64,000 nt of DNA, from contig NZ_WEZF01000011.1 of the NCBI RefSeq assembly GCF_009177065.1, forward strand, positions 1 through 64,000, written 5' to 3'. A program made the position numbers and the translations under genes. The stretch is from Tautonia marina. Its GTDB lineage: Bacteria > Planctomycetota > Planctomycetia > Isosphaerales > Isosphaeraceae. Of the stretch, positions 3,808 to 16,762 are shown piece after piece; the stretch's first letter is position 1; each line of letters starts with the position of its first letter. A model generated the notes under the pieces. The model was not told the DNA's origin. It ran no database searches and saw nothing but the letters and a program-made list of their open reading frames with translations.

Positions 3808-4106
3808 GACTGTATTATGGGCCTCTCCGGGCCGACCGGAAAGGGAGCGACTGGAACGAGATCGGCCCTCAGACTACAATTCGTCGCGCATGGTCGGCCT
3901 CATCGTCCTTTGGTGTTTGCAGGCGCCGCGAACCTCGTGGGAACGAGCATCAAACCGAAGGCCGGGCCGCCATGCGATCCGAACCAAGACGCCTCGAATG
4001 GCGTCTGGTCAATCTGTTGACGTTGCCGTTTCCGTCCGATCCGCCGCCCGACGCGGCTCCGGGCCTCAACGCCCCCGTCCCTCGCCGAAGTCAGGGCAAC
4101 CGACCC

Positions 4107-6827
4107 ATGCCGACCCCACCACGCCCGACTCCCGATCGCCTCGAATGGTCGATCCCGATCGATCCGGTCTTGCAGCAAGAGCTGGAACGTCACGTCCTGG
4201 TCACGAGCTGGGACAAGCTGCTCGGCATGGTCGACACCGTCTATAACTGGGGGAGGCGATCGGCCCTTTGGCCCCTTGGCTTCGGCCTGGCCTGCTGCGC
4301 CATTGAGATGATCTGCACCGCCAGCAGCCGGTTCGACATCGCCCGGTTCGGAGCCGAGGTCTTCCGAGGCAGCCCCCGTCAGGCCGACGTGATGATCGTC
4401 TCCGGCACCGTCACCAAGACGATGATGCCGGTCATCGCCCGCCTCTACGACCAGATGCCCGAGCCGAAATACGTCATCAGCATGGGGGCCTGTGCCTCCG
4501 GCGGTGGGCCGTTCAAGGAAGGGTACAACGTCGTCTCGGGAATCGACAAGTATCTTCCCGTCGATGTCTATGTCCCCGGCTGCCCGCCGACTCCGCAGGC
4601 GCTCCTGAATGGCCTGATCACGCTCCAGAAGAAGATCGACGGCGAGCGCCTCGACATCCCCGCGATCGGTCGCAAGGGGAACACCCCCTGGTACGATCCC
4701 GAGGTCGAGCGTGACATCCCCGTGCCCGTCCTCGGCCCCGACCTGATCGACGTCCGCACCCTCGAACTGACGGCCGAGCGCACCGCCGCCGGTCTGATTG
4801 AGGCCCGGGAGGCGACCCTCGAACGCCCCTTGAAAATCCCCGCGCCTCAGCCCGAAGCTCCCGAGCCTGAGGCAGAACCTGAAGCCCCCGCCAAGCCCGA
4901 CGCCTCCGCCCCCCGGCCGATGAGCAAGATCGATTTGATCCGCGCCAAAGCCCGCGGCGAGGCCATTCCCGAAGGAGCCGAGGCCGCCGCCGCTCCCGCC
5001 GCGAAGAAGCCCGCCGGCAAGCCCGCAAAGAAGGTCAAGGTGGCCGAGGCCCGCCCGAGCCTTGTCTGGCTCGGAGACTCGGCTTTGAAGGAGCTGGCCG
5101 ACCGCCTCAATGCCGAATTCGGCGACGGCACCGCGACGATCATCCGCGCCGCCCTCCTGATTCCCGCCGAGAAACTGCTCGACGTGGCCAGATTCCTCCG
5201 CGACCGCAACCCGATCCGCTACGACTACCTCGCGAGCCTCCAGAGCGTCCACTACGACGACTGCATCGAGGTCGTCTACCAAGTCGACAGTATCGAAACC
5301 CCCGGCTCGTTGATCGCCCTCCGCGTGCGAACCAGCGAGGCCGAAGGGGCAGGGGAGGTCCCCTCGGTCGTCTCCGTCTGGCCCGGGGCCGATTTCCAGG
5401 AGCGCGAAGTCTACGACATGATGGGCGTCCGCTTCACCGGGCACCCGAACCTGACGCGCATCCTCATGTGGGAAGGCTTCGCCTATTACCCGCTCCGCAA
5501 GGATTACCTTGAACCGTACTACGAAGGCCCGGCCAAGGTCTTTCCGAGCCGCATCGAGGACGGCCAGGGGCACCACTTCCGCGCCGAGGAGTTCAACCCC
5601 CACGGCACGAACCTCAAGATTCCCCAGTCGTTCCGAAACTGGGACAGCTTCGACTCCGCCCTCGACCCCAAGGGGATCGGCCTGACCCCCCTGGGAGACG
5701 GGGTTGATCTGCAAGGGCTCGACACCGACCAGTTCATGCTCAGCATGGGGCCGCAGCACCCTTCGACCCACGGCGTCTTCCGGATGAACCTCCGGATCGA
5801 CGGTGAGACGATCGTCGGCCTGAAGCCCGTCATGGGCTACATGCATCGCAACCATGAAAAGATCGGCGAACGCAACACGTTCCTGATGAACTTCCCGTTC
5901 ACCGATCGGCTCGACTATCTCACCTCAATGGGCAACAACTTCGGCTATGCCCTGGCCATTGAGCAACTGATGGGAGACGACGCGAAGGTCCCCGAACGGG
6001 CCGAGTACCTCCGCGTCATCATGGCCGAGCTGACCCGGATCGCCAGCCACATGTGGTCGATCGGCTTCCTGCTCAACGACCTCGGCGCCTTCTTCACCCC
6101 GGCCCTCTACGCGATTGAGGAGCGCGAGTTGATCCTCGACCTGTTCGAGTGGGTCGCCGGCAGCCGAATGATGTGCAATTACTTCCGCTTCGGCGGCGTC
6201 GCCTTCGACCTGCCCCCCGGTTGGGCCGAGCGCTGCCGGGGGATCGTCAACGACCGGCTCGACAAGAAGATTGACGAGCTTGACCGCCTCCTGTCGGAGA
6301 ATGAAATCCTCAAGGACCGCACCAGGGGGATCGGCGTCATCACCCAAGAGCAGGCCATCGCCTATTCCACGGCCGGGCCAGTTCTTCGGGCCTCCAACGT
6401 CCCTTACGACATCCGCCGCGCCGCGCCGTACTCCATCTACGACCGCTTCGACTTCAAGGTCATCAGCACGACCAATGGCGACGTTTATGACCGCTACCTG
6501 ATCCGCCTACTCGAAATGCGCGAGAGCGTCCGCATCCTCAAGCAGGCCCTCCGCGACTTGCCCGACGGCCCGATCCTCCCCGGCAAAAAGAGCTATCAGA
6601 TCAAGGTCCCCGTCGGCGAGGCCTACTCCCGCGTCGAGAACCCCAAGGGAGAGCTCGGCTACTATGTCGTCGCTGACGGCGGCCCGACCGCCTACCGCTA
6701 CCACGTCCGCAGCCCGAGCTTCATCAACCTGACGGCGCTCGAAACCATGTGCCTCGGCCACACCGTCGCCGACGTGGTCGGCATCCTCGGCAGCCTCGAC
6801 ATTGTGCTGGGAGAGGTGGATCGGTGA
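4107..6827 (+). CDS. nuoBCD: NADH-quinone oxidoreductase subunits B, C and D fused in one polypeptide
   Basis: 906 aa from ATG 4107; the frame stays open from 3972, but NuoB homology begins after 4107. Residues 15-200 are NuoB with the N2 cluster cysteines Cys63-Cys64 (GLACCAIEM), Cys129 (MGACASGG) and Cys159 (VPGCPPTP). Residues about 245-315 are an Ala/Pro/Glu/Lys linker. Residues about 318-515 are NuoC, with the signature [18 protein letters not shown]. From about 540 to the end is Nuo[15 protein letters not shown] near the quinone site and the typical C-terminus DIVLGEVDR. Together these form the quinone-reducing Q-module of complex I at the cytoplasmic membrane face. NuoCD fusion is well known; fusion with NuoB is much less common. 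It is the first gene of the operon, 7 bp before the next gene. Confidence 0.96.
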
Positions 6828-6834
6828 GGATCAC

Positions 6835-7209
6835 ATGACGAAGCGGCGACGGCTCTTCCTGGCCCTGGTGTCGATCGGGGCGGTTGTGTCCTTGATCGTC
6901 ACGTTCGAACGCGTGCGGATTCGTCGCGACGTGATCCAGGTACTGACCGTTCCCACGGAACCGACCTTGAGCGTAGCCTTCGTCCATCGCTACTCTCGGA
7001 TCGACCCTCATGGCGATTATCGACTCGAATTCGACAATGACCTGCACTATTGGTTCTTCGATCTTCATCCCTGGCCCGATCCGGCCCGATCCTCTCCGGA
7101 GGTTTTCAGGGGCCGCTTGTCGACGAACTTCGACGGCAACAAACTTGAAATTCACGGCCCACACGATTTCATGTTCTGGACCTCAGGATTGGGACAAAAG
7201 CAACCCTGA
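6835..7209 (+). CDS. Small membrane-anchored protein inside the complex I operon
   Basis: 124 aa from ATG 6835, 7 bp after the nuoBCD stop. An in-frame ATG at 6802 would overlap nuoBCD. After a basic start (MTKRRR), residues 6-24 form one transmembrane helix; the remainder is a soluble domain rich in aromatic residues (YRLEFDNDLHYWFFDLHPWP). I do not recognise the family. The close spacing suggests cotranscription with nuoBCD and nuoI. It could be an accessory or assembly factor, or an unrelated insertion; nothing in the sequence decides. Confidence 0.6.
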   Translation: MTKRRRLFLALVSIGAVVSLIVTFERVRIRRDVIQVLTVPTEPTLSVAFVHRYSRIDPHGDYRLEFDNDLHYWFFDLHPWPDPARSSPEVFRGRLSTNFDGNKLEIHGPHDFMFWTSGLGQKQP

Positions 7210-7282
7210 GTAGACTTTCATTTTCAAGTCTCCCGAACTGCGGCCGCACACCGGATTCGCCGTGGCGTGAAAGGTTGGAACA

Positions 7283-8038
7283 ATGAACGGGTTCAGGAGG
7301 ATCATGGGGACATTCTTCGGGGCGATCGGCTCGATCATCTCGGCCGTGGTGGGGCTCTGGCCGTTCGGCAAGGGGATGATCACCGGCCACCTGGTGACAA
7401 TGCGACGATTCCTCCGCACCTTCACCGTCGGCCACGGGGCAACCACCGCGAGGCACGGCGGCGGCGACCTGCCGATCGACCTCTGGTGGAAACGCCCTGA
7501 ATACCGGCGCGGGCCGGTCGTCGATCAGGGGCCGGACACCGAAGGACTGTTCACCGTCGAGTACCCCGACGAACGCCTGCCGACCCGCGAACGCTTCCGC
7601 GTCTTGCCTGTGCTGATCTACGACGATGAGGACGGCAACGTCCGCTGCACCAGTTGCAATATCTGCGCGAAGGTCTGCCCGCCGCAGTGCATCTGGATGT
7701 CCCAGGCCAAGAACACCAAGGGGAACGTCGTCCCGCTCCCCGAGGAGTTTTACATCGACATGGACGTCTGCATGAACTGCGGTCTCTGCGCCGAGTATTG
7801 CCCATTCGACGCCATCAAGATGGACCAGAACTTCGAGCTGTCGAACTACGAACGGCACCAGTCGCACATCTACTCGCTTCAGGATCTGCTCGTCTCCAGC
7901 GCCTACTACGCCGAGACGCACCCCGAAGCCTGGGCCAGTCCCGAGGAAACCGCCGAGCGGGCCAAGGTTGAGAAGAAGAAGACCCAGCGCCTTCAGAAGG
8001 CGCTCACGGCTCCCCAACCTGCCGAAGCCGGAGCGTAA
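7283..8038 (+). CDS. nuoI: NADH-quinone oxidoreductase subunit I (2x[4Fe-4S] ferredoxin)
   Basis: 251 aa, longer than the usual 160-180. Two classical cluster motifs carry electrons through complex I towards N2: CTSCNICAKVCP (Cys122, 125, 128, 132) and CMNCGLCAEYCP (Cys163, 166, 169, 173). The N-terminal helix region (MTGHLVTMRRFLR-like at 33-46) is the membrane-surface amphipathic part. The extra length is about 50 residues before the clusters and a Lys/Glu/Ala tail after 215 (AERAKVEKKKTQRLQKAL). It follows nuoBCD and one small gene. Confidence 0.96.
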   Translation: MNGFRRIMGTFFGAIGSIISAVVGLWPFGKGMITGHLVTMRRFLRTFTVGHGATTARHGGGDLPIDLWWKRPEYRRGPVVDQGPDTEGLFTVEYPDERLPTRERFRVLPVLIYDDEDGNVRCTSCNICAKVCPPQCIWMSQAKNTKGNVVPLPEEFYIDMDVCMNCGLCAEYCPFDAIKMDQNFELSNYERHQSHIYSLQDLLVSSAYYAETHPEAWASPEETAERAKVEKKKTQRLQKALTAPQPAEAGA

Positions 8039-8195
8039 CCGCCATCAAGCACCCTCCAGATCGCTTGCCCAAAGCCTTGGCCTACGCAACCACCGCCCCG
8101 GGTCGCTACAATGTTCGCCAAGCCGCCGGCCCCTTGTGTGGCCCCGCCGGCGCGGATACGATCGCCCCGCCATCCGCTAGGAGTCCGATTCGCCA

Positions 8196-8501
8196 ATGTT
8201 TTTGAAACAGCCTGAACCCCAGTACGTGCCTGGAACCCGGGTGCGGGTCGTGCAGTTTGTCCGCGTCGGCCATCGCCGCTGGAAGACCGAAGCCATCGGC
8301 ACCGTCGAAGGCGAGGGGCTGCGCCCGGTCGGCGGCATGGAGATGGGCGGCAAGGCCCTCTACTGCCACCAGCCGACCCTGCGTCTTCGCCGCGACGACG
8401 GCGAGATCACCGAGGTCGCGCTCGACGAGAACACTCGCGTCGAATCGCTCGACGACCCCGCCACCACCTCGGCCAGCGGACCCCCTCCGCAGTCGGTCTG
8501 A
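8196..8501 (+). CDS. Hypothetical 101 aa protein between nuoI and nuoA
   Basis: Begins MFLKQPEPQYVPGTRVRVVQFVRVGHRRW, preceded by a GGAG about 14 bp upstream. The sequence alternates beta-strand-like segments (RVRVVQFV, WKTEAIGTVEGEG, PTLRLRRDDGEITEVAL) and ends in a Pro/Ser-rich tail, suggesting a small beta-barrel (SH3-like) fold. Its family is not known to me. Intergenic gaps of 157 bp before and 188 bp after are large for this operon, so it may have its own promoter. Confidence 0.65.
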   Translation: MFLKQPEPQYVPGTRVRVVQFVRVGHRRWKTEAIGTVEGEGLRPVGGMEMGGKALYCHQPTLRLRRDDGEITEVALDENTRVESLDDPATTSASGPPPQSV

Positions 8502-8689
8502 ACCGTTCTCGTGGTGACGCCGTCCCGCGTCGTCGCTCGCCACCGAACCGATCGATCGGCCGGGGCCTCGCTTCGGGAATCGCCCCGGTCGTGGTGCGTG
8601 ATCCCGCGTCCGAGCCACGCCTGGCCCGGCCGAAGGCCCCGGGTCGACTTCGGCTGATCCCCTTGTTTTGATGTGAAGGACCGCTCGCG

Positions 8690-9061
8690 ATGATCCCGAA
8701 CTACGGCTTCATCGGCCTCCTGCTGTTTGCGGCGATCGGCTTTGCCGTGGGTCCGCTCGTGCTGGTGGCGCTCATCGCCCCTCGCAAGCGGTCGGTCGAA
8801 AAGGGGGAGACCTACGAGTGCGGCGTCCGGACGACCGGCGAGACCTGGGTCCGCTTCCGCTTGCAGTATTACATCTACGCCATCCTGTTCGTCGTCTTCG
8901 ACATCGAGACGGTGTTCCTCTACCCCTGGGCCGTCAGCTACCTCGGCCTGGCCGAAATGGGATTCGGGCTGTTCGTCCTGGTGGAAATGGTGATCTTCCT
9001 GGCCATGCTCGCCGTGGGCCTGGCCTATGCGTGGGCGTCCGGCGACCTTCGCTGGGTGTAA
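8690..9061 (+). CDS. nuoA: NADH-quinone oxidoreductase subunit A
   Basis: 123 aa, normal family length. Three transmembrane helices (about 6-29, 62-83, 88-112). Diagnostic motifs: YECGVRTTGETWVRFRLQYY with the conserved Cys in the loop near the quinone cavity, and the acidic IFVVFDIETVFLYPWA-like segment (VVFDIETVFLYPW). Membrane-arm subunit that packs against NuoH, J and K. Followed 49 bp later by nuoH. Confidence 0.97.
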   Translation: MIPNYGFIGLLLFAAIGFAVGPLVLVALIAPRKRSVEKGETYECGVRTTGETWVRFRLQYYIYAILFVVFDIETVFLYPWAVSYLGLAEMGFGLFVLVEMVIFLAMLAVGLAYAWASGDLRWV

Positions 9062-9110
9062 CTCAACCGGGATCGCGACAGAGACTCCCGCCCGAAGGAG
9101 AGAAGGCTCC

Positions 9111-10424
9111 GTGATCGCCCCGCTGCTGGACCCGGTGTTCCTGCTGGCTTTTGCCGATGACGGTCTGCGACCGGCTGGGCTTGACGGGCCTGCCTGGCTT
9201 TACTGGCTCGGCTGGCTCCTGGTCTTCCTCGTCGTCTTCCCGGGGATTGTCGCCTACATCGTCCTGGCCGAGCGCAAGCTCGCCGGGCGGTTTCAGGACC
9301 GCATCGGCCCGAACCGGGTCGGTCCGTTCGGCCTCTTGCAGCCGATCGCCGATGCCATCAAGCTCGTGACCAAGGAGAACCTCGTCCCCCGATCAGCCGA
9401 CGCCTTCGTTCACCTGCTCGCACCGGTCTTGCTGATGGTCTCCTCCTTCCTGGTGCTGGCGGTCATTCCGTTCGGAGTTCGATCGACCGCTCGGGACATG
9501 ATCCCGTTCGGCATCGCCGAAGCCCCGGATGAAGCCTCCCGCTGGTATCCTGGCCTCGCGGCCGTCGATACGGCCTCAGGGCTGCTTTACCTGATCGCCG
9601 CGGCCAGCCTTTCGGTGCTCGGCATCTTCCTGGCCGGCTGGTCGAGCCGCAACAAGTTTGCCCTGATCGGCTCGATGCGGGGAGTGGCGCAGCTCGTCTC
9701 GTACGAGATTCCGCAGGTGCTTTCCCTCGTCCCGGTCATCCTCTGGACGGGGAGTTTGAGCCTCGTCGGCATCTTCAACGCCCAGCTCGACCAGGGGTGG
9801 TTCCTCTTCTCGCCGCCGGGGATCGCCGCCTTCGTGCTCCTGCTCATCGCCAGCATTGCCGAGGTCAATCGCGCTCCGTTCGACTTGCCCGAGGCCGAGT
9901 CGGAGATCATCGCCGGCTACCATACCGAGTATTCCGGCATGCGGTTCGGCCTCTTCTTCCTGGCCGAGTACCTGGCGATCTTCGGCATCTCGTGCGTGGC
10001 CGTCGCCCTCTTTCTCGGCGGCGGGACCTTGCCGGGAACGACCTGGCCGCTCGGGTCGATCGACTCGGTGATCCTGGCCAATGTCATCCTGATCGGCATC
10101 TTCGGCGTGAAGGTCGCCCTGATGATCTTCCTCGTCTTCTGGATCCGGGCCACCTTGCCCCGGATGCGAGTCGACCGCCTGATGAACTTCGCCTGGAAGG
10201 TCCTGATCCCGCTCTGCCTGGTCAACATCCTCGTGGCCGCCGCCTGGCTGGAGCTGGGCGTCCGGCGCGATCGGCCGTTGCTCGGCTGGCTCGTCACCCT
10301 GCCGGTCCTGATCGTCGCCATCGCCGGATTCGTCAGACTCTCCCGATCCGGAGGCCACGCGCCGGTCCTGGGCAAAACAACCCTGGCGCAACCGACTCCC
10401 ACCCCCTCGGGCTCCCTGCGATGA
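9111..10424 (+). CDS. nuoH: NADH-quinone oxidoreductase subunit H
   Basis: 437 aa from GTG 9111, which has GAAGGAG about 10 bp upstream; the frame is open from 9027 but that part overlaps nuoA. About eight transmembrane helices. Signatures include [20 protein letters not shown] and the acidic quinone-channel loop [15 protein letters not shown] followed by GYHTEYSGM. NuoH joins the Q-module to the proton-pumping arm. A Ser/Thr/Pro-rich tail follows the last helix. nuoJ starts 28 bp downstream. Confidence 0.97.
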
Positions 10425-10452
10425 GCCGAACCGCCACCGAGGACGCACGACC

Positions 10453-12240
10453 GTGAGCCCCCTTCAGCTCATCTTCCTGATCGTTTCGACCGTTGGCCTT
10501 TTGACGGCCCTGGGGACGGTGCTTGCCCGGAACCTCGTGCATGCGGCTCTGTTCCTGGTCGCCTTTTTCTTCACGGTCGCCTGTCAGTTCGTCCTGCTGG
10601 AGGCCGAGTTCCTCGCGGCGATGCAGGTGCTCATCTACATCGGGGCCGTTTCCATCCTCCTGCTGTTCGGGATCATGCTCACCCGGAACATCCAGGGAGA
10701 CGAGACGACGGGCGGTCACTGGGGGTGGAAGCTCCCGGCCGGCATCGTCGCCTTCGGGGTGCTCGGTGTCTTGCTGTTCGGGATCACGGCCGAACGTGGC
10801 CGACCGGGTCAGGAGTCGTGGGTCCGCATTAACTCCCGTCCCGGCGGGGTGAACCCCCGGATCGGCGGGCCAGACTCGCTCGCCCTGGCTTACAGCCCCA
10901 CAGGCCAGTTCATCGCCTCGGCCGACGCCGATGGACGTATCCGCCTCTGGACGATCGCCGGGCAACAACGATCAGTCCTGCACCTGGAGGGCCTCGCTCC
11001 CTCGGCCGTCACCTTCAGCCCCGACGCCTCACTGATCGCCGCGGCCGACGGCCAGGGTCGGGTCCGCGCCTGGCAAACCCTCAGCAACCGAACCATCCTC
11101 GACCGCTCCGGAGGCCTCCCCGGCTCCATCACGTCCGTGGCCGTCAGCCCCCCTCAATTCGAGGACGAAGGGGCGAACCTCATGGTCGCCACCGGCGGCG
11201 CTGACGGGATCGTCCGGGTCTGGGTCGGCCCTGATCCGGTCGAGATCGAGGCCCACAACGGCGCCGTGCTCGCCATGACCTTCACCTCCGAAGGGCACCT
11301 GGTCACCGCCGGGTCCGACCGCCGCGTCGTCACCTGGAACCTTCTGACCGGCGAATCGACCTCCATTCCTTCGTCCAGTGAAGGCCGGCCAATCGGCGCC
11401 CTGACGCTCGGCCTGGTGCCCCCTCCCGAGCCGGTTGCCTCCGATCCCCAGGGACCTCCACCGCCTCCGCCTCCTCCTCCGGCCGCGGGAGGGGTCTCTG
11501 GCCCCCTGGTGGCTGTCGCTTCGCTCGTCAGCGGCGAGCCGGGCCGATGGGATCTTCGGGTCCTGAACATTCCCGACCGCGCCGAGGTTACCCGTGTTGA
11601 GGGCCTGTCCGGCATTCCGATCGCCGTCTCCGTGGCCAGCGACGCCCGGCGGGTCGCCGCCCTCGTCTTGCCCGCTCCATCATCGGACAGCAACACCGAC
11701 ACCGAAGCCGACGAGAACGAGTCCCTCCCCACCGTCCAGGTCTGGCCGCTCGATCCCGAGGTCGCCCGTCGCGAACCGGTTGCGGTTGATTTGCCCGAGC
11801 CGGTTGGTCCCTTCTCGCAGATGGCCGCGGGTCCTCAAAGCGTTCGGCTGGCCCTGGCCCCCGAAGACGGCCCCATTCGCTTTTACGACGATCGGGACGG
11901 CGTCTGGACGGCATCCCGCAGTCCGACCAGCACCACGGCCACCGTCATCGCCGACATGCCCCGAGCCGTCGGCATGGAACTGATGACCCGATCGGTCGTC
12001 CCCTTCGAGGTCGCCGGCCTGATGCTGACGGCCGCCCTCGTTGGCGCCATCGTCCTGGCCCGCCAGGAACGCCGCGATGCGCCGAAGCTGCCCGACCCCC
12101 TGGCCGATCGCCTCGCATCGGGCCGGCCGATTCCCCCGAGCGGCCTAACCGGCGAGCCCGAACCGTCCCTGGCCGGTGCTTCCGAAGGTTCCCGAACCCC
12201 CGGCCGCTCCGAATCTCCCGGCGCAAGGTCCCCCCAATGA
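10453..12240 (+). CDS. nuoJ: NADH-quinone oxidoreductase subunit J with WD40-type propeller inserted before its last helix
   Basis: 595 aa against about 170-200 for ordinary NuoJ. Residues 1-112 are the first four NuoJ helices (4-24, 28-50, 54-77, 93-112), including VLIYIGAVSILLLFGIML with the conserved pi-bulge region. Residues about 125-500 are foreign to NuoJ. They hold WD40-like repeats: LALAYSPTGQFIASADADG...IRLWT (142-167), AVTFSPDASLIAAADGQG...VRAW (185-207), VATGGADGIVRVW (245-257), LVTAGSDRRVVTWN (283-296), then less regular blades broken by a ten-Pro run (335-343) and an acidic loop (411-424). NuoJ resumes at 504: AVGMELMTRSVVPFEVAGLM then AALVGAIVLARQE, the typical last helix. Both NuoJ halves are in one frame, so this is an insertion, not two genes. 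With the known five-helix topology the propeller would sit on the outer side. Stop overlaps nuoK start (ATGA). Confidence 0.93.
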   Translation: MSPLQLIFLIVSTVGLLTALGTVLARNLVHAALFLVAFFFTVACQFVLLEAEFLAAMQVLIYIGAVSILLLFGIMLTRNIQGDETTGGHWGWKLPAGIVAFGVLGVLLFGITAERGRPGQESWVRINSRPGGVNPRIGGPDSLALAYSPTGQFIASADADGRIRLWTIAGQQRSVLHLEGLAPSAVTFSPDASLIAAADGQGRVRAWQTLSNRTILDRSGGLPGSITSVAVSPPQFEDEGANLMVATGGADGIVRVWVGPDPVEIEAHNGAVLAMTFTSEGHLVTAGSDRRVVTWNLLTGESTSIPSSSEGRPIGALTLGLVPPPEPVASDPQGPPPPPPPPPAAGGVSGPLVAVASLVSGEPGRWDLRVLNIPDRAEVTRVEGLSGIPIAVSVASDARRVAALVLPAPSSDSNTDTEADENESLPTVQVWPLDPEVARREPVAVDLPEPVGPFSQMAAGPQSVRLALAPEDGPIRFYDDRDGVWTASRSPTSTTATVIADMPRAVGMELMTRSVVPFEVAGLMLTAALVGAIVLARQERRDAPKLPDPLADRLASGRPIPPSGLTGEPEPSLAGASEGSRTPGRSESPGARSPQ

Positions 12241-12575
12241 TCAGCAGTGGCGACATCCCCCTGAGCTGGTTCCTGATCTTCGCGGCCGCCGCCTTCGCCA
12301 TCGGCCTGTTCGGCGTGCTCTCTCGGCGCAACGCCATCGCCCTGTTGATGGCCGTCGAGATCATGCTCAACGCGGCCAATATCAACCTTGTCGCCTTCTG
12401 GCGGTTCAACGACGCGACCAGGCCCGAAGGCGGGCCGATCTCCGGCGTCATGCTGGCGATCTTCGTCATCACGCTCGCCGCGGCCGAGGTCGCTGTCGGC
12501 ATCGCCCTGATCCTGCTCTGTTACCGCCGCTGGCTCGCCGCCGACGTGGACCGTTACGACAGCATGGCGGGTTAA
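12237..12575 (+). CDS. nuoK: NADH-quinone oxidoreductase subunit K
   Basis: 112 aa, normal length, three helices. The two membrane glutamates of the proton path are in LLMAVEIMLNAANINL and LAAAEVAVGIALIL. Its ATG overlaps the nuoJ stop by 4 bp, so it is translationally coupled to the chimeric nuoJ; this argues that the chimera is expressed as part of the complex. Next is nuoN, 101 bp on, where most operons have nuoL and nuoM. Confidence 0.97.
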   Translation: MISSGDIPLSWFLIFAAAAFAIGLFGVLSRRNAIALLMAVEIMLNAANINLVAFWRFNDATRPEGGPISGVMLAIFVITLAAAEVAVGIALILLCYRRWLAADVDRYDSMAG

Positions 12576-12676
12576 CCGCCGACTCGACGTTGACTCGAAC
12601 CGATCGGCCGAGCCTTTCCTCGGCCGATCCTTCCCGAACGACCTTCCCCATTGTCCCCCGCGATCGGACCCCTCCC

Positions 12677-14401
12677 ATGCCCGCTTTTGCCGCCGAGCCG
12701 GTGAACCTCGGCCAGCTCTGGTCCCTGGCGGCTCCGCTCTGGCTGACCTTCTGGGGACTCGTCGTTCTGCTACTCGACGTCGCCTTGATGCGAGGCGCGT
12801 CGAGCCCTTCCCGCCGCAAACGGCTTGGCCTACTGTCCCTGCTCGGGCCGATCGGTGTGCTCGTCCTTCTGCTCACCCCCTTGCTCGTGCCCTCGGAGGT
12901 GGTCTCCGACCCCGATCCGACCCTCTTTTACGGCACGATCGCTGGCGACCTGCTCACCCAGTCATTCCACGCCCTGATCGCTCTCTTGCTGGCGATGGTG
13001 CTCGGCCTTTCCCTGACCTGGGACTTCACCGAGCACTGGGGACCGTATTACGCCCTGATGCTCTGGGCAGGCGTCGGCATGATGATCCTCGTCTCGGCCG
13101 AGGAGTTGCTCATCCTCCTCATCAGCCTGGAGATGATGACGATCTGCCTCTACCTCGCCTCTGCCTTTGAAAAATCACGCCTGCGGTCGTCCGAAGCGGG
13201 GATGAAATACTTCGTCTACGGCTCGGTCTGCTCGGCCCTCTTCCTGTTCGGCCTGAGCCTGATCTACGGTCTGACGGGCACAACCCACCTCGACGGCATC
13301 CGCAAGGTCCTGCTCGACCGCGTCGGGGGTGAGGTGTCGCTCGGGCTCGCCGGAGATGTCCTTGGCGGCACGGCCGTCCTGCTCGTCCTCGTCGGCTTCG
13401 GCTTCAAGATCGCCGCCGTCCCGTTTCACCAGTGGGCCCCCGACACCTACGAAGGTGCCCCGGCCCCCGTCTCGGCCTGGATTGCCTCCGGGTCGAAGGT
13501 CGCCGGCTTCGTCGCCCTGATGAAAGTCTTCTTGCACGCCCTCGGCCCCTGGGCCGGCACCGCTGGAACCGAGGGCGCCGGTGGCTGGGTTTTGATCCTC
13601 GCCCTGATCGCGGCCATCACGATGACCTTCGGCAACCTCGCCGCCCTCGGGCAGCGGAACCTCAAGCGCTTGCTCGCCTATTCTTCGATCGCCCACGCCG
13701 GGTACATCCTGGTCGGTGTCGTGGCCGCGGCCGTGACGATTCGGGTCGGCTCAACTCGCGGAGAAACGGCCGGCTCGGTCCTGTTCTATCTGGTCATCTA
13801 CAGCCTGACGACCGTCGGCGCCTTTGCCGTGGCCGCCTGGCTCGCCTCCGACAAGGGTCGAGACGACATCGACGATCTGAACGGTCTGGGCTTCTCCTCG
13901 CCCGGCCTGGCGGCCTGCATCGTCGTCTTGATGCTCTCGTTGATCGGCATGCCGCCAACGGCCGGTTTTTTTGCCAAGCTCTACCTCTTTCTGGAAGTGC
14001 TCAACGCCGATCCGACCGCCCGCCCGTTGCTGCTGACCCTGGTGGCTCTGGCCCTGGTCAACTCGGTGATCTCGGCCTTCTACTATGCCCGGGTCCTCCG
14101 CGCCATGTTCCTCCGCCAAGGAGACCGCGCCCCGAAGCCCGCGACGAGGGGGGTTGCCTGGCCGATCGGTCTGGCCACCCTGGTCGCCTTGGGCTTCGGC
14201 CTGGCCCCCACCCCCTTGCTCGACGCCATGCGAACGGCCGGTAGCTCGATGCTCGCCATCACCTTGCCCGCGACCGACCTCGACCGCGATCGTGAGCGTT
14301 CCGCCCCCGCTGCGATCCCCTCCGCGGCCACTGCCAATCCCGAGTCCGCCCCCACCTTCGCCCCCGCTCCCCGGATCGCGACCGCCCACCGCCGTCCGTG
14401 A
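12677..14401 (+). CDS. nuoN: NADH-quinone oxidoreductase subunit N
   Basis: 574 aa from ATG 12677; the frame is open upstream but overlaps nuoK. Antiporter-like proton-pumping subunit with about 14 helices. Signatures: AEELLILLISLEMMTICLYL (TM5 Glu), YFVYGSVCSALFLFG, FGFKIAAVPFHQWAPDTYEG with the key Lys, and LKRLLAYSSIAHAGYIL. The last 50 residues are Pro/Ala/Ser-rich and outside the family fold. It is the only antiporter-like subunit here, as NuoL and NuoM genes are missing from the operon. Confidence 0.96.
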   Translation: MPAFAAEPVNLGQLWSLAAPLWLTFWGLVVLLLDVALMRGASSPSRRKRLGLLSLLGPIGVLVLLLTPLLVPSEVVSDPDPTLFYGTIAGDLLTQSFHALIALLLAMVLGLSLTWDFTEHWGPYYALMLWAGVGMMILVSAEELLILLISLEMMTICLYLASAFEKSRLRSSEAGMKYFVYGSVCSALFLFGLSLIYGLTGTTHLDGIRKVLLDRVGGEVSLGLAGDVLGGTAVLLVLVGFGFKIAAVPFHQWAPDTYEGAPAPVSAWIASGSKVAGFVALMKVFLHALGPWAGTAGTEGAGGWVLILALIAAITMTFGNLAALGQRNLKRLLAYSSIAHAGYILVGVVAAAVTIRVGSTRGETAGSVLFYLVIYSLTTVGAFAVAAWLASDKGRDDIDDLNGLGFSSPGLAACIVVLMLSLIGMPPTAGFFAKLYLFLEVLNADPTARPLLLTLVALALVNSVISAFYYARVLRAMFLRQGDRAPKPATRGVAWPIGLATLVALGFGLAPTPLLDAMRTAGSSMLAITLPATDLDRDRERSAPAAIPSAATANPESAPTFAPAPRIATAHRRP

Positions 14402-14437: not shown

Positions 14438-16225
14438 GTGCACGACGACTCCGAGACCGGCCCCGAGGTCGACGCCTGGGAACTCTTCGCTCTGGCCGCC
14501 TGCCAGCCGCTCCGAGGCCATCCGAACTGCTTCGTCGCCCCGCAGCTCGACCCCTCCGCCGCCGTCCGGGCGCTCAAGACCTACCTCCGCCCGAGGCCCG
14601 ACGAGCTCTTGCTGGCGATCATCGAGCAGCCGGGCCCGACCGGCCCCGTCCCCGCCTGCACGATCACCTCGCAACGCGTTTGCTGGCCCGGCGGCGACTC
14701 CCCCCGATCCGGTCACGCCCTTGCCTTCGACGAGCTTCCCGAATCGGTCCGGGTCGTCGGCAGCCTCGACACGACCCTCGACCTCGGCCACCGGCACTCC
14801 CTCCCCCTGCGATCCACCGAATCCAACGACGCGGCCGAGGCCCTGGCCGGTGTGCTCTCCACCCTCTCCCAGGCTCGACGCTCGGGCGATCTTGCCGGCT
14901 CGACCTCTCGCGACGCCCTGAACCGTGCCCGGGCCGAGATCGGCCACGTCGTCCGGCAAGCCGCCGCCTTGCATCAGGTGGATGGCGAGGTCCGCTCCTT
15001 CCAGGCCGACGTGCAGGCCGCCACGCCTCGGGTGGTGGTCACTCCCACGCTCATCGCCTCCTGCCTGATCGTCTTCGTGGCGATGGTCCTCTCGGGGATC
15101 TCGATCCTCAGCCCGAGCGTCCCGTCCCTGATTGCCTGGGGAGGCAACGTCGGCGCGGCCGTGGCGATCGACGGCCAGTTCTGGAGGCTCCTGACCTCCG
15201 TCTTCCTCCACGGCGGCATCATCCACCTGGCGGTCAACCTCTGGGTCCTCTCCCGAATCGGCCCGCTGGTGGAACGCCTGTACGGCAACGTCGGGTTTGC
15301 CTTGCTCTACCTGGCCGCCGGGCTGGGCGGGGCTCTGGCCAGTGCCTGGTGGCATCCGCTGGTCGTCAGTGTTGGGGCCTCGGGGGCGATCTTCGGCCTG
15401 ATCGGCGGTCTTGGGGCCTTCCTGCTCTCACACCGGGCGGCCATCCCGGCGCCGGTCGTCGCCAGTGTGCGGGGAGGGGTGATCGCCTTCGTTGTCTACA
15501 ACACCCTGTTCGGTCTGGCGATCCCGGGCATCGACAACGCCGCGCACCTCGGCGGCCTGGCCTCCGGATTCGTCGCCGGCCTGCTCCTCCAGCGCCCCTG
15601 GCCGGTCGCTCGCCCCACGGCCGGTCTGATCCGGCAACTGCTCGGCGGGCTGGCGGTCGCCTCGGCCTTGCTGCTGCTGGGTCAGTTCGTTAATGCTCAG
15701 GTCCGTCGCAATCCGGAAATCCTCGCACTGCTCGATCAGGAACTCCGCAAACCGTTGCGCGACTACCAAAACCTGGCCGAGGCCATGCGCCCGTCGCTCC
15801 AGCGTTTCGACACGATCAATACCGAACTCGACGACCTGCTCAATCGGATGCGCCAGACTCCCACCATCGAACCCACCGATCGCGCCCAGATCGACTCCTT
15901 GCTTGCCGAGGGAGACGCCAACCAGGCCGCTCTCTCTCAGATCGAGGCCGACGACCCCGACCTCCTCGCCATGCGAGACGCCATCCTCGCCGCCCAGGAG
16001 GCCCTGAACCGCTCGCTCCAGGCCCTCGCTCGTCACCTCGACCAGCCAGCCGAACACCCCGCGCTCGATGCCCCCGACGGCTTCCTCACCCTGCGCAACG
16101 AGAGCATCGAACAGGTCAACCGGTTCCAGCGACGCCGTCAAAACTACCTGAAAACGCACGGCCTCGTCGAAGTGCCCCCAGACGCCGCCGACGACGACGA
16201 AGCCCCGGATCCCCCGGCTCCGTGA
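14438..16225 (+). CDS. Rhomboid-family intramembrane serine protease with long C-terminal coiled coil
   Basis: 595 aa from GTG 14438 with GAGGA about 8 bp upstream. Residues 1-190 form a soluble N-terminal domain of unknown type. Residues 200-420 are the rhomboid membrane core: HGGIIHLAVNLW (His258, Asn267), catalytic Ser315 in GASGAIFG, catalytic His370 in DNAAHLGGLASG. Residues 420-575 are polar and heptad-like (DNA-free coiled-coil look, LLDQELRKPLRDYQNLAEAM) and end in an acidic Pro-rich tail. Rhomboids cut single-pass membrane proteins within the bilayer. It starts 36 bp after nuoN, so it may be read through from the complex I operon. The family is secure; the substrate is unknown. Confidence 0.9.
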   Translation: MHDDSETGPEVDAWELFALAACQPLRGHPNCFVAPQLDPSAAVRALKTYLRPRPDELLLAIIEQPGPTGPVPACTITSQRVCWPGGDSPRSGHALAFDELPESVRVVGSLDTTLDLGHRHSLPLRSTESNDAAEALAGVLSTLSQARRSGDLAGSTSRDALNRARAEIGHVVRQAAALHQVDGEVRSFQADVQAATPRVVVTPTLIASCLIVFVAMVLSGISILSPSVPSLIAWGGNVGAAVAIDGQFWRLLTSVFLHGGIIHLAVNLWVLSRIGPLVERLYGNVGFALLYLAAGLGGALASAWWHPLVVSVGASGAIFGLIGGLGAFLLSHRAAIPAPVVASVRGGVIAFVVYNTLFGLAIPGIDNAAHLGGLASGFVAGLLLQRPWPVARPTAGLIRQLLGGLAVASALLLLGQFVNAQVRRNPEILALLDQELRKPLRDYQNLAEAMRPSLQRFDTINTELDDLLNRMRQTPTIEPTDRAQIDSLLAEGDANQAALSQIEADDPDLLAMRDAILAAQEALNRSLQALARHLDQPAEHPALDAPDGFLTLRNESIEQVNRFQRRRQNYLKTHGLVEVPPDAADDDEAPDPPAP

Positions 16226-16327: not shown

Positions 16328-16762
16328 ATGGCCATCGTCCAGACGTTCGAGGCGTGCCTGCAAAGCCCCTATCTTCGCCGGGATGACTCGGCCGCCGATC
16401 GCGTCGGTGAGCTGCTCAACCGCGCCGCCGACCGGCTCGATGCCGCCGCCAACATCCAGGCCAATCCCAAAGGGGACCCGACCGACCTCTGCCTGATGAG
16501 CTACGAGGCCATGTTCTGCTGCCTCCGCGCCCTCGTCTATCAAAAAGGCTACCGAGAGGCCGGGCTCCGCTGCCTGATCCTCGCCTGCGAAGGACTCTAC
16601 GTTCGTCCCGGCCTGCTCGATGCCCAGCACCTCCGCACCTTCGAACGGGCCCAGGCCCTCCGGTTGGCCCCCGACGAGGCCCTCGACGCCGCTTCGGCCT
16701 TCGTCAAGCAGACCCTGGAGTTACTCCGCTCCGACGAACCATCCGACGCCGTCCGGCCTTGA
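16328..16762 (+). CDS. Small all-helical protein, HEPN/TPR-like, unknown function
   Basis: 144 aa, predicted nearly all helix: SAADRVGELLNRAADRLDAA, then YEAMFCCLRALVYQKGYREA and GLRCLILACEGLYV. The pattern of helices with an early Tyr-Glu-Ala and Leu-rich pairs resembles HEPN proteins, but the HEPN RNase motif R-x4-6-H is not seen. It follows the rhomboid gene by 102 bp on the same strand. Function is not assigned. Confidence 0.7.
   Translation: MAIVQTFEACLQSPYLRRDDSAADRVGELLNRAADRLDAAANIQANPKGDPTDLCLMSYEAMFCCLRALVYQKGYREAGLRCLILACEGLYVRPGLLDAQHLRTFERAQALRLAPDEALDAASAFVKQTLELLRSDEPSDAVRP

Follow-up and report, generated by a model that had tools for sequence, protein, structure and literature searches.

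Few membrane proteins are as conserved as the core subunits of respiratory complex I. One of these subunits, NuoJ/ND6 (Nqo10, NdhG; PF00499), has five transmembrane helices, a characteristic motif in TM3 and a place in the operon between nuoH and nuoK. In the stretch of Tautonia marina DNA analysed here (64,000 nucleotides, hereafter the window), the nuoJ product has the same five helices, the same TM3 motif and the same gene place, but it departs from the usual compact form, which has no additional folded domain, since it is 595 aa long and carries a WD40-type propeller. The protein shows clear homology to the solved NuoJ/NdhG chains 6hum_G, 8qby_J, 9g83_J and 8e9g_J; the solved relatives matched are 199-252 aa long, whereas the Tautonia protein has ~350 extra residues in the loop between TM4 and TM5. 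The extra domain is no reason to deny homology with NuoJ, compactness being a usual and not a defining feature of this subunit.

WD40 propellers are normally protein-binding platforms and not enzymes. Degenerate blades are common among them, and a canonical motif in every blade is not required. The fold predicted for the Tautonia insert is the same seven-bladed one as in the WD40 domain of PkwA (5yzv) and in the designed protein nvWrap-T (7bie). Those two lie outside any membrane helix bundle, whereas the Tautonia propeller stands within a membrane protein and has degenerate blades 5-7.

Additions to complex I are known from two other settings. The mitochondrial P-side subunits of the intermembrane space (IMS), NDUFA1, NDUFA8, NDUFS5 and NDUFA13, share the face and neighbourhood predicted for the propeller, but they are separate, helical and unrelated polypeptides whereas in Tautonia a domain is built into a core subunit, and the likeness is one of analogy, not of membership. 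The compact insertion loop of Escherichia coli NuoG, of 94 residues (PMC8357420), is likewise a lineage-specific structured insert in a core subunit, but it belongs to the cytoplasmic arm and is much smaller than the Tautonia propeller. The NuoJ and WD40 parts described here are each ordinary; their combination is not, and it represents a new architecture for a complex I core subunit. No report joining NuoJ with WD40, in planctomycetes or elsewhere, was found among open-access papers.

A WD40 propeller before the last helix of NuoJ

The nuoJ gene is one intact frame with a GTG start, overlapping nuoK by an ATGA at 12237 (Table 1). Its place between nuoH and nuoK is supported by synteny in the window and in eight related loci. 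Read from its N terminus, the product starts with NuoJ helices 1-4, continues into a WD40 domain of ~350 residues and ends with the last NuoJ helix followed by a short tail. The Pfam model Oxidored_q3 (PF00499) matched the 595-aa protein at 2.2e-36 and 125 bits (cut-off 33.2 bits), with residues 19-120 as the best stretch and a second stretch also matched. The NCBIfam NuoJ models cover residues 5-113, and the short FpoJ/NuoJ-C models of the same collection cover residues 504-540. When PDB sequences were searched, residues ~7-112 led to NuoJ/NdhG chains and residues ~144-302 to WD40 propellers. AlphaFold2, run on the full protein with an input alignment of 29 rows, placed helices at residues 3-24, 28-48, 53-77, 90-113 and 503-542; a hydropathy plot also gave five. 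Alignment with 28 relatives showed that the TM3 motif around Y62 (QVLIYIGAV) is kept.

Table 1. Coordinates of nuoJ, its parts and the neighbouring genes in the window
Feature	Position	Strand	Evidence
nuoBCD fusion (true start probably near residue 44-50 of the frame)	3972..6827	+	PRK13292, 1e-200; synteny
nuoI	7283..8038	+	NuoI models (NCBIfam)
nuoA	8690..9061	+	Synteny; 63-100% identity at the same position in Isosphaeraceae
nuoH	9108..10424	+	PF00146, 5.1e-110
nuoJ with inserted WD40 propeller	10453..12240	+	Open frame; Pfam; NCBIfam; kept in 4/4 Tautonia genomes
NuoJ transmembrane helices 1-4 (residues 3-113)	10459..10791	+	PF00499; AlphaFold2; hydropathy; alignment with 28 relatives
Linker after TM4 (residues 114-140)	10792..10872	+	19/27 residues invariant in Tautonia
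WD40 propeller, predicted seven blades (residues ~141-487)	10873..11913	+	PF00400; 28 AlphaFold2 strands; Foldseek
Most conserved propeller segment (residues ~350-371, GPLVAVASLVSGEPGRWDLRVL, blade 5)	11500..11565	+	12/15 invariant in its best stretch
Second linker (residues 488-507), ending in ADMPRAVG	11914..11973	+	Alignments
NuoJ last helix TM5 (model residues 503-542; membrane part 514-538)	11959..12078	+	NCBIfam; AlphaFold2; hydropathy
nuoK	12237..12575	+	PF00420, 8.7e-22; overlaps nuoJ by ATGA
nuoN	12680..14401	+	TIGR01770, 9.1e-104
Rhomboid-family gene after nuoN	14438..16225	+	PF01694, 7e-32; GASG and H motifs kept

The insert begins around residue 136-141 and ends around residue 487-497. 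The Pfam WD40 model (PF00400) matched it at 1.2e-18 and 67.1 bits (cut-off 27 bits), although only two stretches passed singly and canonical motifs are not present in all blades: blades 1-4 are canonical, blades 5-7 are degenerate, and a proline-rich loop lies within blade 5. A shuffle control used an exported-looking WD40 protein of planctomycete origin as query, which gave 73 bits to the real insert and at most 7 bits to any of 500 shuffled versions. AlphaFold2 placed propeller strands between residues 142 and ~486 of the full protein, and the model of the isolated domain (residues 129-507, four alignment rows) contained 28 strands with a pTM of 0.74, a number that is compatible with seven four-stranded blades in the prediction. 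Blade 7 had a pLDDT of ~54-63 when the domain was modelled alone and of <50 within the full protein, and the last blade and the closure of the ring are modelled with low confidence. Among Foldseek matches, the top TM-score by target was 0.75, to nvWrap-T (7bie), followed by 0.74 for the PkwA WD40 domain (5yzv), and the E value to a seven-bladed propeller was 7.4e-17.

An earlier note on this DNA had claimed that NuoJ helices, a WD40-like part and the last NuoJ helix share one frame coupled to nuoK by ATGA. Pfam, NCBIfam and AlphaFold2 agree on the former and the overlap is present, confirming that the product is NuoJ with a WD40-type propeller before its last helix. A lack of any WD40 match and of any propeller in the predicted structure, which would have spoken against this, was specifically looked for, and both propeller signs were present. 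The WD40 insert itself has stood, but its size, given at first as about 380 residues, has to be revised to a net gain of ~350.

Distribution and origin of the insert

Four Tautonia species are named at NCBI, and the split NuoJ match was recovered in 4/4 Tautonia genomes (the window's own, G041, G040 and G042, the last being T. sociabilis GM2012). The NuoJ proteins of G041, G040 and G042 are 85, 55 and 58% identical, respectively, to that of the window and have the same architecture. The integrity of the frame had been set beforehand as a test of the earlier claim, and since three relatives carry the same frame in independent assemblies, with nuoK directly after it and with an 8.67 Mb contig in one of the four assemblies, a frameshift or assembly artefact fusing two genes is ruled out for all practical purposes.

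In other Isosphaeraceae, 29 orthologues have the usual short loop, with 78-93 residues separating the end of TM3 from the TM5 motif; the same interval measures 437-458 residues in Tautonia. The insert replaces the middle of the short loop. On one side, RPGGVNP... matches the RPxxx... of ordinary orthologues; on the other, ADMPRAVG is, in our reading of the sequences, the probable counterpart of their NNMxxxVG, a pairing from which the automatic alignment deviates by setting the gap a few residues later. A profile built from the four Tautonia sequences detected no propeller-bearing NuoJ outside the genus in 398 genomes of the class and 392 of the phylum, the best three candidates per genome being scored, a procedure that very divergent cases could escape. 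Judged by these sequence searches, the insert appears confined to the genus Tautonia among the genomes searched. Given the short loop of the 29 orthologues in other Isosphaeraceae, the simplest explanation is that the propeller was gained once, at the base of the genus.

A propeller donor was sought in eight genomes and none clear enough to be named was found, because the best WD40 matches outside NuoJ had 35-41% identity and covered blades 1-4 only. The best matches from the same family, Isosphaeraceae, were long WD40 proteins with 39-41% identity over blades 1-4. Plasmid records contained ordinary WD40 proteins only.

Other inserts occur in the same TM4-TM5 loop. NuoJ proteins of a second type, from other Planctomycetia families (loci L137-L156), carry inserts of ~100-190 aa at the site used in Tautonia, but these belong to a different NuoJ type and lack WD40, with no Pfam or WD40 match above cut-off in the five scanned. 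The inserts of some lineages bear little resemblance to each other. Examples are the frames L150:562-1758:+ and L146:916-1875:-; by eye, most of the inserts look helical and that of L146 looks beta-rich. The second-type NuoJ of one Isosphaeraceae genome (G005, locus L047) has a Gly/Pro-rich insert of ~100 aa in this loop.

Membrane side and possible role of the propeller

NDUFA9 is a matrix-side subunit of mitochondrial complex I. The TMH3-4 loop of ND6 touches NDUFA9 and its TMH4-5 loop touches NDUFA1, on the IMS (P) side (PMC10036122, PMC9977279, PMC8762328), and the TM3-4 and TM4-5 loops of NuoJ are therefore assigned to the N and P sides, respectively. Cysteine is absent from the insert in three of the four Tautonia species and occurs once in the fourth, which fits a periplasmic domain. 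Judged by eye, the N-termini of several of the closest WD40 proteins resemble export signals. On the strength of the topology, the hydropathy, the few cysteines and these exported-looking relatives, the propeller is very likely periplasmic, and the prediction that the TM4-TM5 loop holds it on the P side, near the NuoH/NuoA/NuoJ/NuoK junction, is well supported. The first three of these lines agree with the outer-side position proposed in the earlier note.

Our main reading, to which we assign a probability of roughly 55%, is that the propeller is a P-side accessory domain which, by means of its linkers and blade 5, braces NuoH/A/J/K or holds a partner. It would be a covalently tethered domain and is probably a non-catalytic scaffold for binding or assembly. 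Anchored by both conserved linkers and by the well-kept segment of blade 5, it would sit on the P side of the complex, docked on NuoH/A/K, and its other, fast-changing blades would present a binding surface. So placed, the propeller could act as a brace for the proximal membrane arm, much as IMS accessory subunits do for the mitochondrial complex, or it could keep a periplasmic partner in place. NDUFA1, which meets the ND6 TMH4-5 loop, has been proposed to connect two membrane-arm subassemblies (PMC8762328). The role suggested earlier, holding partners or fixing complex I within the membrane system, is a plausible if putative one. No effect on proton pumping is expected, given the intact TM3 region and the structural variability of TM4 in NuoJ/ND6; the position of ND6-TMH4 varies and was judged functionally unimportant (PMC9977279). 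The role is a proposal from sequence and model, for a protein whose present range is one genus.

The pattern of conservation bears on this reading. Outside the helices, identity among the Tautonia proteins peaks in the two linkers (19/27 and 13/23 residues invariant) and in residues 350-371 of blade 5, a segment that is a candidate docking surface. In the closest pair, the window and G041 (dS 0.3-0.5; 0.50 for the insert), dN/dS was 0.043 for TM1-4, 0 for TM5 and 0.25 for the propeller, which is fast-evolving yet under purifying selection. In the more distant Tautonia pairs, about half of the insert residues differ and the dN/dS of the insert rises to 0.65-0.83, with dS probably compressed by high GC; much of the propeller surface is therefore weakly constrained.

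A narrower version of the accessory-domain reading, one of its branches and not an independent explanation, is that the propeller does not brace the complex but recruits one defined periplasmic or membrane partner, such as another respiratory complex within a supercomplex or an envelope protein. WD40 propellers are established as protein-binding platforms in most cases, and a fast-changing surface could track a changing partner, but, rhomboid aside, no partner gene was gained together with the insert in the operon, and we hold this version only tentatively. The same reserve applies to the possibility that a periplasmic WD40 platform docks a specific partner, as a supercomplex or envelope anchor, by a domain insertion paralleling the separate P-side subunits of mitochondria.

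The main rival to the accessory-domain reading is that the propeller is a tolerated passenger, inserted by chance, folded without a dedicated role and kept mainly since its clean loss is unlikely. It owes this position to the TM4-TM5 loop being an insertion hot spot in Planctomycetia, and the dN/dS of the insert, ~6x that of the NuoJ helices, points the same way. We nevertheless consider it unlikely, as an open, full-length domain has been kept in four species despite differences at about half of its residues, selection in the closest pair is purifying, and the linkers and blade 5 are conserved.

Far less probable is that the rhomboid protease of the same operon cuts NuoJ near the membrane and so releases or rearranges the propeller. 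Only in Tautonia does its gene lie close behind nuoN, and its Ser (GASG) and His motifs are intact, but the argument is one of position, rhomboid genes are common, and the frame in T. sociabilis is shorter (417 aa). Slighter still are the chances that a changed topology puts the propeller on the cytoplasmic side: the linker that follows TM4 contains five Arg, unusual for an outer loop, but Arg also occurs at this place in ordinary orthologues, none of the five helices or their loops is lost, and cysteine is nearly absent from the insert.

Whichever role the propeller has, the presence of a whole folded domain within a core subunit means that NuoJ can take up large cargo in its P-side TM4-TM5 loop, a natural site for tags or tethers. 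The protein also offers a way to ask how respiratory complexes gain accessory parts, and, Tautonia species being in culture, it and its partners are directly testable.

The nuo operon and a second complex I

The gene order nuoBCD-nuoI-orf101-nuoA-nuoH-nuoJ-nuoK-nuoN-orf144 is conserved in the eight related loci compared. The nuo cluster of the window (3972-14401) contains no nuoE, nuoF, nuoG, nuoL or nuoM. A nuoL-nuoM-like pair stands alone on another contig (C2, locus L127), and a second nuo cluster (contig C4, locus L049) has its own ordinary NuoJ, a NuoF and antiporter-like subunits; NuoF-like genes were found only in this second cluster and beside a NiFe hydrogenase. Since the window's cluster is without nuoE/F/G and L/M, and a nuoL-nuoM-like pair lies elsewhere, the propeller-bearing complex may be of the 11-subunit kind, with no NADH module of its own, and receive its L and M subunits from outside the cluster; sharing of NADH-module proteins encoded elsewhere is also conceivable. 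With a second version of complex I present, some complex I activity could survive the loss of the propeller NuoJ.

The rhomboid-family gene between nuoN and orf144 is found at this place in Tautonia only, the other Isosphaeraceae compared having no rhomboid there, and it counts at most as a putative part of the complex I system. For the frame at 6802-7209 (135 aa), in the gap between nuoBCD and nuoI, no counterpart was found, not even in the nearest Tautonia relative, and it is probably not a gene, or a very young one. Between nuoI and nuoA, orf101 (8196-8501, 101 aa) was present in all Isosphaeraceae compared, with 54-93% identity. It had no match in Pfam or NCBIfam and one non-significant match in the PDB (E 0.7), and from its sequence conservation it is possibly a family-specific complex I accessory protein. 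Downstream of the operon, orf144 (16328-16762) showed 57-91% identity in the Isosphaeraceae compared.
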